In this document: positions 56,281-60,785 of the stretch, in pieces
Layout: each line of letters starts with the position of its first letter
Position numbering within the stretch: the first letter of the stretch is position 1
NCBI RefSeq assembly: GCF_947497915.1
Contig: NZ_CANMIJ010000001.1
Span: 473,501-537,500 of the forward strand
Direction: 5' to 3'
Length of the DNA stretch: 64,000 nt
DNA from: an uncultured Erythrobacter sp.
GTDB taxonomy: Bacteria; Pseudomonadota; Alphaproteobacteria; Sphingomonadales; Sphingomonadaceae
Made by a program: the position numbers and the translations under genes
Notes under the pieces: generated by a model
What the model saw: only the letters and a program-made list of their open reading frames with translations
What the model was told of the DNA's origin: nothing
Database searches by the model: none

Positions 56281-56308
56281 CGTCAATTCGCGCCTAATCC
56301 GGCGCAAT

Positions 56309-56470
56309 CACTTCGGTAACGGGAATGCGGTGTAACTCCGCAGCTGTCCCTGCAACTGTAAGCGGTGAGCGATTGTTTCGTGCGGCGTCTGAAAAAGGCG
56401 CTGCAGCCACTGAGGAAACCCCTTGGGAAGGTGAGAAACAGACGCGCTGATCCGTGAGCCAGGAGACCGA
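56309..56470 (+). promoter_or_regulatory. cobalamin (B12) riboswitch
   Basis: The B12-box core GGGAATGCGGTG, followed by CTGTCCCTGCAACTGTAAGCGGTGAG, then GCCACTG, GGGAAGG and GTGAGCCAGGAGACC, is the order and sequence of the adenosylcobalamin riboswitch. It lies 135 bases before btuB and would switch off receptor synthesis when B12 is plentiful. Confidence 0.96.
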
Positions 56471-56604
56471 CCGGAGCGTGTCGCTTGTAGCCTGGTTCAG
56501 GGATTGATCCGGCGCGAAAAACTTTCGTTTCGAGCGACGATAGCTGGCCGTGCGGGCATTTTCCGTGCGGTCAATTGTGTTGCTCATTCGGAAGGGATCC
56601 GAGA

Positions 56605-58560
56605 ATGAAGACTATACTATACCTTGGCGCTGCGACCGCAGCGCTTGGCACGAGCGCGCCAATATCGGCTCAGGACGCAGCAGATGATGCCGTGGCCAGC
56701 GCCAATGATCAGCAAGCTGTTGACGACATGCCTTCAGAATTACTGGTTGTCGCCAGCCGCGCTGAGAACCTCGATTTGAGCCGCTACACGGGCTCTATCT
56801 TGCGACTTTCGCGTGAGCAGCTGGAACAGCGCCAGACCCGCGATATCGCCGATATTCTGCGCGATGTGCCCGGCGTCGCCGTTAGCAGTGTCGCGGGCCA
56901 GACGCAGATCAGACTGCGCGGGTCGGAGGCGAACCATGTTCTCATCCTTGTTGACGGTATCGAGGTCTCCGATCCGTTTGCGGGCGAATTCGATCTTGGC
57001 ACTTTGCAGGCAGAGGTCGGTGCAAGCGTTGACGTTTTGCGCGGGCCGCAATCCGCGCTTTATGGAGCGGACGCAATCGGAGGCGTTGTGGCGTATCAAA
57101 GCGCCAGCGGTGCAGAACTGAACGGTCTTGGCGGACGGGTTGAGGCTGGCACCAATGACACCCTTAACGGCTCAGTCCGCTTTGGCATCGGCGATTACAA
57201 CGCCGATCTGGCAGTGAATGCGACAGTTGTCAGCACGGATGGTGAACCCAATGCGAGAGACGGGACGCGCGATCTGGGCCGCAATAGTTACACATTGTCT
57301 GGCAAGGGCTCAGTCCGCCTAACGGAAACATTGCAAGCCCGCGCTGCCGCGCGCTTCATTCGTACAGAGGGCGATTTCAACAATTCCGACTTTGACGACA
57401 CTCAGCCAACATTCGGCCTGATTATCGACACGCCGGAAACCCGATTTGAAAACGAAGCGATCTATGCGCTCGCGGGTGTAAAGCTCGACACATTCAATGG
57501 CGCATGGACGCATGACTTTTCGGCCCAGCTGGCTGATATCAAACGCGATACGTTCGGAGCGTTTGGCCGCAGCGGCGGAAGCGAAGGCGAGCGATTGAAG
57601 GCCTCGTATGTGAGCGCGGCCGAGATCAACAGCGGCAATGCGACTCACTTCATCACCTTCGCAGCCGATTGGGAGCAAGAGCAGTTCCGAAACAACGACC
57701 CGTTCGGCACCGCTTTTGCCGGAACACGCGAGATCGAGAATATCGGCTTGGTTGGAGAATACCGGTTTGAAGGCGGGGATTTCGACCTTTCCGCAGCTCT
57801 GCGTCACGACATCAATGATCGCTTCTCCGATGAAACAACATTCCGGGTTGGCGCGGGCTACAACGTCGCGGATGGCACTCGGTTAAGAGTAAGCGCAGGG
57901 TCGGGCATAAAGAACCCCGGCTTTTTCGAGCTGTTCGGTTTCTTCGATGGCCAGTTCATCGGCAATGCCGACCTCCAGCCAGAAAAGTCGACCGGCTGGG
58001 AAGTTGGGATCGACCAGAGTATCGCCAACGGGAAAGCGAGCGTTTCGCTGACGTATTTCGACAGCACGCTGGAAAACGAGATTTTCACGACATTCCCAGC
58101 GCCGACTTTCGTTGCAACACCGGCCAATCGCCAAACAGACAGCAAACGGCGCGGGGTTGAGGTGTCGGCAAATGCGGTGCTTGGCAGCGGTTTCTCGATC
58201 GATGCGGCCTACAGCTACCTTGATGCGAAAGAAGACGGCATCGAAGAAGTCCGCCGCCCCGATCACATTGCCAGTGCGGCGCTAAACTGGACTGCGAGCG
58301 ATGATGGAGCCTCCGCTACGCTGGTGATCCGGCACAATGGCGAGACCGAAGATCTTGCCTTTACCGATCCCAGTTTCATACCGGTTCGTGAAACACTGGA
58401 TGACTTCACACTCGTCAATCTGTCTGGCGAAGTGCGTCTAACCGAGGGCGTGAACCTGTTTGGCCGCGTCGAAAACTTGCTTGATCAAACTTACGAGCAA
58501 GTGTTCAGCTTTGTTTCGCCGGGTCGCACAGCAACCGCAGGAATCCGCGCGAGGTTCTAA
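56605..58560 (+). CDS. btuB: TonB-dependent cobalamin receptor BtuB
   Basis: Outer-membrane receptor for vitamin B12 uptake, powered by TonB. Signal peptide, then a TonB-box-like SELLVVASR, the plug domain (LRDVPGVAVSSVAGQTQIRLRGSEANHVLILVDG) and a 22-strand barrel ending in the aromatic terminus RARF. 651 residues from the preferred ATG (behind GAAGGGATCC). The riboswitch directly upstream is strong evidence that cobalamin is the ligand. No btuCDF or cob genes are near. Confidence 0.93.
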   Translation: MKTILYLGAATAALGTSAPISAQDAADDAVASANDQQAVDDMPSELLVVASRAENLDLSRYTGSILRLSREQLEQRQTRDIADILRDVPGVAVSSVAGQTQIRLRGSEANHVLILVDGIEVSDPFAGEFDLGTLQAEVGASVDVLRGPQSALYGADAIGGVVAYQSASGAELNGLGGRVEAGTNDTLNGSVRFGIGDYNADLAVNATVVSTDGEPNARDGTRDLGRNSYTLSGKGSVRLTETLQARAAARFIRTEGDFNNSDFDDTQPTFGLIIDTPETRFENEAIYALAGVKLDTFNGAWTHDFSAQLADIKRDTFGAFGRSGGSEGERLKASYVSAAEINSGNATHFITFAADWEQEQFRNNDPFGTAFAGTREIENIGLVGEYRFEGGDFDLSAALRHDINDRFSDETTFRVGAGYNVADGTRLRVSAGSGIKNPGFFELFGFFDGQFIGNADLQPEKSTGWEVGIDQSIANGKASVSLTYFDSTLENEIFTTFPAPTFVATPANRQTDSKRRGVEVSANAVLGSGFSIDAAYSYLDAKEDGIEEVRRPDHIASAALNWTASDDGASATLVIRHNGETEDLAFTDPSFIPVRETLDDFTLVNLSGEVRLTEGVNLFGRVENLLDQTYEQVFSFVSPGRTATAGIRARF

Positions 58561-58574
58561 TCTTCTCGCAATTC

Positions 58575-58615
58575 ATCGAGGAAATGCATAGGTGCGTCCC
58601 ATGCATTTCCTCGAT
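58575..58615 (+). promoter_or_regulatory. 15-bp perfect inverted repeat over the obgE start codon
   Basis: ATCGAGGAAATGCAT (58575-58589) and ATGCATTTCCTCGAT (58601-58615) are exact reverse complements around an 11-base loop. The right arm is the first five codons of obgE, and the loop carries the apparent Shine-Dalgarno AGGTG. In mRNA the start codon would be base-paired, so this could be a translation switch for obgE. No T-run follows, so a simple terminator for btuB is less likely. Confidence 0.75.
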
Positions 58616-59659
58616 CAAGCCAAAATCTACCTTAAATCAGGTGCCGGAGGGCCAGGAGCGGTCAGTTTCCGGCGCGAGAAGTATGTCGAATATGGCGGCC
58701 CGGACGGCGGCAATGGCGGCAAGGGCGGCGACATCATCTTCGAAGCCGTGCAGGGCCTCAACACGCTGATCGACTTCCGTTATGCTCAGCATTTCAAAGC
58801 CAAGCGCGGCAATCACGGGCAGGGTAAAGACAAAACCGGCGCGGCAGCGCCTGACCTGGTGATCAAAGTACCGGTCGGCACTCAAGTTTTGTCAGAGGAC
58901 AAAGAAGAAGTTCTCGCCGACTTTACCGAGATCGGCCAGCAGGTCGTATTCCTCAAAGGTGGGATAGGCGGTCGCGGCAATGCGTCCTACAAAAGCTCAA
59001 CCAATCGCGCCCCGCGTCAACATCAGCCGGGAACTCCGAGCGAGGAAGCGTGGGTCTGGCTCCGTTTGAAATTGCTTGCGGATGTGGGACTACTAGGTCT
59101 GCCCAACGCGGGGAAATCGACTTTCATCAACGCTGTATCGAATGCTCAGGCCAAAGTTGGCCATTATGCCTTTACGACGCTGATTCCGAAGCTCGGTGTG
59201 GTTTCCCACAAGGGCCGCGAATTTGTGCTCGCCGATATTCCGGGCCTGATCGAAGGCGCTGCGGATGGCGCGGGTATTGGAGACCGTTTCCTTGGGCACA
59301 TCGAGCGGTGCCGCGTGCTCATCCATCTCGTCGATATCGCTGGTGATGATCCAGCCGAAGCGATGAAAATCGTTAAGGATGAGCTTGCCGCTTACGGCGA
59401 AGGCCTCGAAGACAAGCCGCAATTGATTGCGCTGAACAAGCTCGATCTTGCCGACGCAGAACTTGGTGAAGCATTCGCAAAAGAGCTCATGGCTGCTGGC
59501 GCGGAAAAGGTGTTCGCGATCTCTGGCGCGACCGGCGAAGGTGTCGCTGAATTGATGGATGCGGTCTTGGGGTATCTTCCTGACCAGACATCGACCGAAA
59601 CCAACACAGTCGAAGTCGAAGACGAAGACGAGACGGCCGGGGAATGGTCCCCGATTTAA
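58601..59659 (+). CDS. obgE: GTPase ObgE/CgtA
   Basis: Essential GTPase linking ribosome assembly (50S), stress and replication. The Obg fold (residues 1-158) has FLDQAKIYLKSGAGGPG and glycine-rich repeats (GGPDGGNGGKGGD). The G domain has P-loop GLPNAGKST, G3 DIPGLIEGAADGAGIG and G4 NKLD. A 35-residue acidic tail ends it (352 residues). I use ATG at 58601, since MHFLDQAKIY is the family start; the tracked GTG is three codons earlier. This start lies inside a perfect inverted repeat. Confidence 0.96.
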   Translation: MHFLDQAKIYLKSGAGGPGAVSFRREKYVEYGGPDGGNGGKGGDIIFEAVQGLNTLIDFRYAQHFKAKRGNHGQGKDKTGAAAPDLVIKVPVGTQVLSEDKEEVLADFTEIGQQVVFLKGGIGGRGNASYKSSTNRAPRQHQPGTPSEEAWVWLRLKLLADVGLLGLPNAGKSTFINAVSNAQAKVGHYAFTTLIPKLGVVSHKGREFVLADIPGLIEGAADGAGIGDRFLGHIERCRVLIHLVDIAGDDPAEAMKIVKDELAAYGEGLEDKPQLIALNKLDLADAELGEAFAKELMAAGAEKVFAISGATGEGVAELMDAVLGYLPDQTSTETNTVEVEDEDETAGEWSPI

Positions 59660-59663
59660 CGTC

Positions 59664-60785
59664 ATGGTTTTGAGCGCGATTTCAGACTTTTCCGAAGCAC
59701 GGCGGATTGTGATCAAGATCGGCAGCGCGCTCTTGGTCAGATCAGGCAAGCCGGCAACCGAATGGCTGGGTGCCGTCGTCGAAGACATGATAGCCCTTCG
59801 CAAGAATGGCGCTGAAATCATCATCGTCAGTTCGGGCGCGATTGCGCTGGGTGCGGCGCGTCTTAACCTTCCTAAAGGCGGACGGGCGAGCCTAGCCGAC
59901 GCACAGGCGGCGGCCTCTGTCGGTCAGGTCGCCTTGGCGCAGCTTTGGGCTCACGCTTTGGGCCAGCGCGACCTGACGGCGGCGCAGATGCTCGTAACAT
60001 TGGACGATCTGGAAGACCGTCGCCGCTATCTCAACGCGGCTGCGACGCTCGAACGCTTGTTAGAAGCGGGCGCGATCCCGGTCGTCAATGAAAACGACAG
60101 CGTCGCGACTGCAGAGATTCGATTTGGCGACAATGATCGTTTGGCCGCGCGGGTTGCTCAGGCGGCTGGCGCGGATGCGGTTATGCTGCTCTCTGACGTC
60201 GATGGCCTTTATGATCGTGATCCCAGCCAAGACAGCGCACAATTGATCGAGCGGGTCGAAGGCGTAACGCCCGAAATCATCGCGATGGCAGGCGAAGGTT
60301 CGTCCTCTGGTCTTGGATCAGGCGGAATGCTGGCCAAGCTTCAGGCGGCCCGGATCGCCGAGCGCGCGGGCATCACACTCGCGATTATCAATGGGACCGA
60401 AGAACATCCTATAACCGCATGCTTGAAAAGTGGGCGTGGAACCGTGTTTGCTCCCGTGCGCGCCGACAATGCTCGTAAGAGCTGGCTTGGCGGTAGGCTC
60501 GCACCTGAGGGTGTGCTGACGGTGGATGCTGGCTGTGTTGAGGCTTTGGAGGGCGGAGCAAGCTTGCTCGCCGCAGGCCTGATCGAGATTGAGGGCGATT
60601 TTCAGCGCGGCGCGCTGGTCAGCCTGCATGGCCCGAAAGGGCAGCGGCTTGGACAAGGGCTAGTCGAATACAGTTCTGAGGAATGCCGCGCGATTGTGGG
60701 CCTGAAACAGGACGATCAAGAGGCAAAGCTGGGTTACGCCCCGCGCGCTGCGGTGGTTCACCGCGATCACATGGTAAGTGGATAG
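59664..60785 (+). CDS. proB: glutamate 5-kinase with PUA domain
   Basis: First enzyme of proline synthesis. Kinase fold opens RIVIKIGSALLV, with SSGAIALGAARL, VNENDSVATAEIRFGDND and GSGGMLAKLQAA. The C-terminal PUA domain covers about residues 275-365. 373 residues from the ATG four bases after the obgE stop; the tracked start is inside obgE. The obgE-proB arrangement is common in alphaproteobacteria. Confidence 0.96.
   Translation: MVLSAISDFSEARRIVIKIGSALLVRSGKPATEWLGAVVEDMIALRKNGAEIIIVSSGAIALGAARLNLPKGGRASLADAQAAASVGQVALAQLWAHALGQRDLTAAQMLVTLDDLEDRRRYLNAAATLERLLEAGAIPVVNENDSVATAEIRFGDNDRLAARVAQAAGADAVMLLSDVDGLYDRDPSQDSAQLIERVEGVTPEIIAMAGEGSSSGLGSGGMLAKLQAARIAERAGITLAIINGTEEHPITACLKSGRGTVFAPVRADNARKSWLGGRLAPEGVLTVDAGCVEALEGGASLLAAGLIEIEGDFQRGALVSLHGPKGQRLGQGLVEYSSEECRAIVGLKQDDQEAKLGYAPRAAVVHRDHMVSG

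Follow-up and report, generated by a model that had tools for sequence, protein, structure and literature searches.

The analysed stretch of DNA, 64,000 nt of a contig of an uncultured Erythrobacter sp. (hereafter the window), carries around the start of obgE the following features:

56283-56489, + strand: cobalamin riboswitch aptamer (RF00174; Rfam cmscan score 89 bits, E 1.4e-21), preceding the btuB-like gene
56605-58560, + strand: btuB-like gene for a TonB-dependent receptor (Pfam Plug and TonB barrel); the open reading frame opens at 56575 and the start codon is uncertain
58566-58571, + strand: predicted -35 element TCGCAA, placed by a CTCGC block that stands throughout the genus at an almost constant distance from the ATG; 17 bp to the -10 box
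58575-58589, + strand: left arm of an inverted repeat, within the predicted promoter spacer, its last base also opening the -10 box
58589-58594, + strand: predicted -10 element TAGGTG, which matches TANNNN (consensus of PMC7566282) and shows conservation of T-12 and A-11
58601, + strand: predicted transcription start, the A of the obgE ATG, placed by adding a 6-nt discriminator to the -10 element
58601-58615, + strand: right arm of the inverted repeat, identical with obgE codons 1-5 (MHFLD)
58601-59659, + strand: obgE (Obg/CgtA GTPase, 352 aa; NCBIfam NF008956 and TIGR02729 above cutoff)
59664-60785, + strand: proB, glutamate 5-kinase (TIGR01027 above cutoff)

The best NCBIfam model for the product of the btuB-like gene is TonB-B12, with a score below the cutoff of that model. 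The gene ends with a TAA codon (58558-58560) 40 nt ahead of the obgE ATG. A cobalamin riboswitch was also detected at 15 of the 20 relatives' loci examined, and the riboswitch and the btuB-like gene are syntenic with obgE in most of the relatives examined. On the distal side, proB starts 4 nt past the obgE stop codon (window positions 59656-59664) and probably shares one operon with obgE; since it follows directly, control of obgE transcription would also affect proline synthesis.

The perfect 15-bp inverted repeat at the obgE start is composed of the left arm ATCGAGGAAATGCAT (58575-58589), the 11-nt loop AGGTGCGTCCC and the right arm ATGCATTTCCTCGAT (58601-58615), which confirms the coordinates, spacing and position at the ATG given in an earlier, sequence-only reading of this DNA. 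In an RNA fold of 58570-58622 the repeat forms a 15-bp stem of -25.8 kcal/mol (z = -6.6), a stability reached by none of 200 shuffled sequences. The entire 64-kb window was scanned for perfect inverted repeats with arms of at least 10 bp and loops of 3-30 nt, and three were found; the one at obgE is the longest by 5 bp and the only one with arms longer than 10 bp, the other two having arms of exactly this length. In ten first-order Markov resamplings of the window the longest arms measured 10-13 bp, one resampling contained no such repeat and 13 bp was never exceeded. The inverted repeat is far from what chance would produce. It was rejected as an intrinsic terminator, in line with the earlier remark that its geometry is not typical of one: the stem is followed by CAAGCCAAAA and not by a U-tract, and a + strand terminator scan between the btuB-like stop codon and obgE found none. 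An Rfam search of the hairpin region (E up to 1) gave no match.

A scan for the sigma70 consensus TTGACA/TATAAT found nothing, because the local promoter consensus differs. Zymomonas mobilis belongs to the order Sphingomonadales. Promoters mapped in this species and in Caulobacter are reported to have a -35 element TTGNNN, a 17-bp spacer, a -10 element TANNNN without the usual final T and, mostly, a 6-bp discriminator (PMC7566282). Leaderless mRNAs number 119 in Zymomonas (PMC7566282) and 375 in Caulobacter, where they are reported to have unstructured starts (PMC4117421). The layout in the window is TCGCAA, a 17-bp spacer, TAGGTG, a 6-nt discriminator and the A of the ATG. A family-wide comparison of obgE starts revealed a TA step fixed 11-13 nt ahead of the ATG and an almost complete absence of Shine-Dalgarno sequences: TA occupies -13/-12 in 83% of 63 obgE starts from other genera of the family (0-8% at other positions), with SD-like cores in five of them, and within this genus (105 genomes) T-12 is present in 87% and A-11 in 91%, with SD-like cores in 20. 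Throughout the genus, the CTCGC block lies about 35 nt ahead of the ATG at a near-fixed distance.

This comparison shows obgE to have a promoter of its own, with a putative -10 box 12-7 nt ahead of the ATG. The AGGUG of the loop (58590-58594), previously taken for a Shine-Dalgarno sequence, more probably belongs to the -10 hexamer TAGGTG (58589-58594), SD cores being rare. Because the -10 box and the 6-nt discriminator end at the ATG, the ordinary obgE mRNA is predicted to be leaderless and to start at the AUG; a -10 box about 6 nt ahead of an ATG that lacks a Shine-Dalgarno sequence is the arrangement expected of a leaderless mRNA, and in a fold of the predicted transcript the first 18 nt are unpaired. 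The left arm, which by this assignment consists of promoter spacer and the first -10 base, would then be missing from the mRNA made from the obgE promoter, and the hairpin could form only in RNA entering from upstream. The claim that the stem holds the AUG in obgE mRNA was accordingly narrowed: the AUG would be buried in any RNA carrying both arms, but not in the ordinary mRNA with its predicted start at the A of the ATG. A literature search on obgE with leaderless mRNA, and on obgE with cobalamin riboswitches, returned nothing direct.

We favour, at slightly less than an even chance, the reading of the hairpin as a read-through start-codon lock, open in the leaderless mRNA of obgE itself and closed in RNA reading through from btuB. 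From its place ahead of the predicted start at 58601 the left arm can pair with the initiation region, and in a modelled btuB-obgE read-through RNA the full stem folds. Both arms would be present together only in RNA running in from the btuB-like gene, itself under riboswitch control; if such RNA is made, its 10-15 bp stem would hide the AUG and leave obgE untranslated. The supply of ObgE would come from its own leaderless transcript only and would be insulated from the vitamin-B12-dependent transcription of btuB, the lock doing the work of a terminator, which would not fit into the space available.

The sequence-only reading suggested that translation of the ordinary obgE mRNA is regulated by a switch, operated by a protein, a small RNA, temperature or feedback from ObgE; this seems improbable. 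The stem is indeed strong, conserved and able to bury an AUG, but the predicted transcript begins at the ATG and lacks the left arm, the supposed Shine-Dalgarno sequence of the loop coincides with the -10 box and, as a Shine-Dalgarno sequence, lacks conservation, a stem of -26 kcal/mol is probably too stable for a plain thermometer, and the Rfam search supplied no known element. With a leaderless mRNA predicted, any such switch would have to act on read-through or unmapped longer transcripts.

The distribution of the motif bears on a further possibility, namely that a dimeric regulator uses the dyad as its DNA operator and sits over the -10 box and the start site. With up to 3 mismatches allowed, the motif occurs in the 2.9-Mb genome at the obgE site only, and a covariance-model search likewise returned one copy per genome. 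The exact core, GGAAATGCAT-N4-25-ATGCATTTCC, was found in 5 of 401 genomes of the family, once in each and in this genus only, and wherever checked these matches sit at obgE. Because of the single copy per genome, a dispersed repeat, a mobile repeat and a regulon site were rejected; the single copy also argues against a regulon operator and for the lock. An operator would suit the position of the dyad, which covers the -10 box and the start, and its two identical half-sites about 26 bp apart; the arms, however, co-vary and tolerate G-T, which is unexpected of an operator, and together with the single genomic copy this makes the operator very improbable.

For comparison among relatives, a pattern search recovered the obgE start region in 105 of the 114 genomes of this genus group, and an obgE tree was built from the 105 sequences with the first 60 coding bases removed. 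About 57 related species keep a core of 10-11 bp (GGAAATGCAT paired with ATGCATTTCC) in the same place and with a gap of 10-13 nt; these hairpin-bearing species, dozens of related marine bacteria, are mostly found together in a single region of the tree. Pairs +1 to +10 hardly ever vary, at +11 to +13 Watson-Crick or G-U pairing prevails, and +14 and +15 pair as often as expected by chance. The left arm thus does not vary freely among close relatives in its 10-bp core, but does so at its outermost pairs, and the perfect 15 bp seen in the window are therefore read as a conserved stem of 10-13 bp extended by chance pairs. In one relative (L134; G031:C1:1508856-1509928) obgE lies in two overlapping frames (residues 1-74 and 66-352), which reflects either a frameshift or a sequencing error in an essential gene.

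In the pairing alignment 92.5% of the cells are paired, and the covariation score was matched by only 1 of 500 shuffles. The covariation in both arms that the sequence-only reading had proposed to look for was found in part: there are a few compensatory changes, with A-U in place of G-C at two pairs (+9 and +12), and G-U is tolerated in many sequences, but no covariation is present at pair +15 among the relatives. At pair +11, changes in the left arm kept a G-U pair 11 times and broke it twice. A test on independent pairs pointed in the expected direction, with too few pairs and independent lineages for significance.

These data also bear on the main rival explanation, that the hairpin is a by-product: the promoter sequence AAATGC-TA and the codons ATG CAT TTC (Met-His-Phe) would be constrained separately and be complementary over 8-10 nt by accident, the 15 bp of the window would represent the upper tail among relatives, and a hairpin in read-through RNA would be unselected. 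We consider this possible though somewhat less probable than the lock, the two being rated close together. In its favour, A-19, A-18, T-16, G-15, C-14, T-12 and A-11 are conserved genus-wide with or without the hairpin, pairs +14 and +15 are at chance, and other early obgE codons (8 and 9) are conserved too. A clade without the hairpin also conserves its promoter spacer (GCAGCAAAAATTGC) in the absence of pairing, so that conservation of the spacer alone is no proof of pairing. Constraint at synonymous sites was likewise rejected as proof: it is striking if genomes are picked by pairing, but only suggestive and non-significant with a tree-defined clade, in which about 9% of codon triples vary as little as codons 3-5 or less. 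Against the by-product, the GG partners of +9 and +10 are near-invariant in the hairpin clade alone, and the compensatory A-U pairs at +9 and +12 arose in several lineages, with no opposite moves at +9.

In the non-hairpin clade (e.g. L072, L077 and L122) we also observed a strongly conserved spacer, CTCGCAATTGCAGCAAAAATTGCCTATGCG, together with a direct repeat, AATTGC. Part of this clade has a palindrome, GCAATTGC, inside the spacer, which is more conserved than expected for a plain sigma70 spacer.

The gene context was compared with the presence of the hairpin in 104 genomes, the hairpin being defined by at least 11 pairs and a near context by a btuB-like stop codon within 65 nt of the ATG. 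The hairpin was present in 45 of 53 genomes with a near btuB-like stop and in 6 of 51 with the gene farther away or absent, and this tie to btuB distance is not what a by-product would lead one to expect. Phylogenetically independent contrasts offered 6 usable pairs, of which 3-4 agreed with the expectation and 0-1 opposed it, and the sign tests were not significant; as both traits switch rarely on the tree, phylogenetically independent support is weak. Many genomes with longer btuB-obgE gaps carry GC-rich stem-loops in the gap, and a hairpin where spacing is tight with other stem-loops where it is longer is what the idea of a terminator substitute predicts. About eight relatives in which a different same-strand gene ends about 48 nt upstream of obgE have no hairpin, an argument against insulation being generally needed, and 5-6 hairpin genomes have a distant btuB.

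The stem could also act at the 3' end of the btuB mRNA, as a stabiliser or as a site of processing, and not as a lock on obgE. Its location immediately past the btuB stop codon and the other stem-loops in many relatives with longer gaps would fit such an element, which we nevertheless regard as unlikely: there is no U-tract and no terminator call, and the position of the stem follows the obgE start (gap steady at 10-13 nt) and not the btuB stop codon, which ranges from -39 to -168 across relatives.

Two further observations concern the region ahead of obgE. Relatives L069 and L131 have neither a btuB-like gene ahead of obgE nor the hairpin, and their gap contains, by eye, a tRNA-like gene. In the non-hairpin clade (L064, L066, L113, L125, L128 and others) the btuB-obgE gap carries repeated GC-rich palindromic units (GCACCCCATCCGGGGTGCGAAATCCTCGCTC...; CTCGAGCG...CGCTCGAC; CCCCTCCC...GGGAGGGG), and these resemble small dispersed repeats that were inserted at a single site.

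For phage T4 e and soc and the IS10 transposase gene, transcripts that begin at outside promoters have a paired initiation region, which is free in transcripts from the gene's own promoter; unlike obgE, these are phage or mobile genes with SD-led translation and unrelated sequence. The closest described case appears to be sigG of Bacillus subtilis, for which a large hairpin (20+ bp) has been proposed to block translation of spoIIG read-through RNA, one of its arms lying upstream of the sigG start site and being absent from the own-promoter transcript (PMC5942855, with its refs 9 and 52). As far as this account goes, both loci would have a long stem directed against read-through from an upstream operon and unable to form in the own-promoter mRNA. 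They differ in that sigG is a leadered sporulation sigma gene with a ribosome-binding site (PMC5942855), while obgE is a predicted leaderless gene for an essential GTPase, its left arm is the putative promoter spacer itself and its upstream gene is under a B12 riboswitch. The leaderless mRNAs of Caulobacter (PMC4117421) and Zymomonas (PMC7566282) resemble the predicted obgE mRNA in their start on the A of the ATG, their -10 TANNNN and their unstructured 5' coding region, but the parts of these two reports considered here describe no start-codon lock against read-through of the kind proposed for obgE.

Going further, a clade of the Erythrobacter group may, with a probability well below even, have evolved such a lock: an essential leaderless gene would use its promoter spacer also as an antisense arm against its own start codon, so that translation would proceed only from its own transcript and never from B12-regulated read-through RNA, the terminator having been replaced. 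If this is true, close-packed genes would stay independent without a terminator, one short stretch of DNA serving both as promoter and as a block to translation on foreign RNA. The idea of a read-through lock would then cover an essential GTPase of ribosome assembly as well as leaderless genes, a frequent class in alphaproteobacteria. The output of obgE would be independent of vitamin B12 in the species with the hairpin, and would become B12-dependent once the left arm was altered with the promoter intact.
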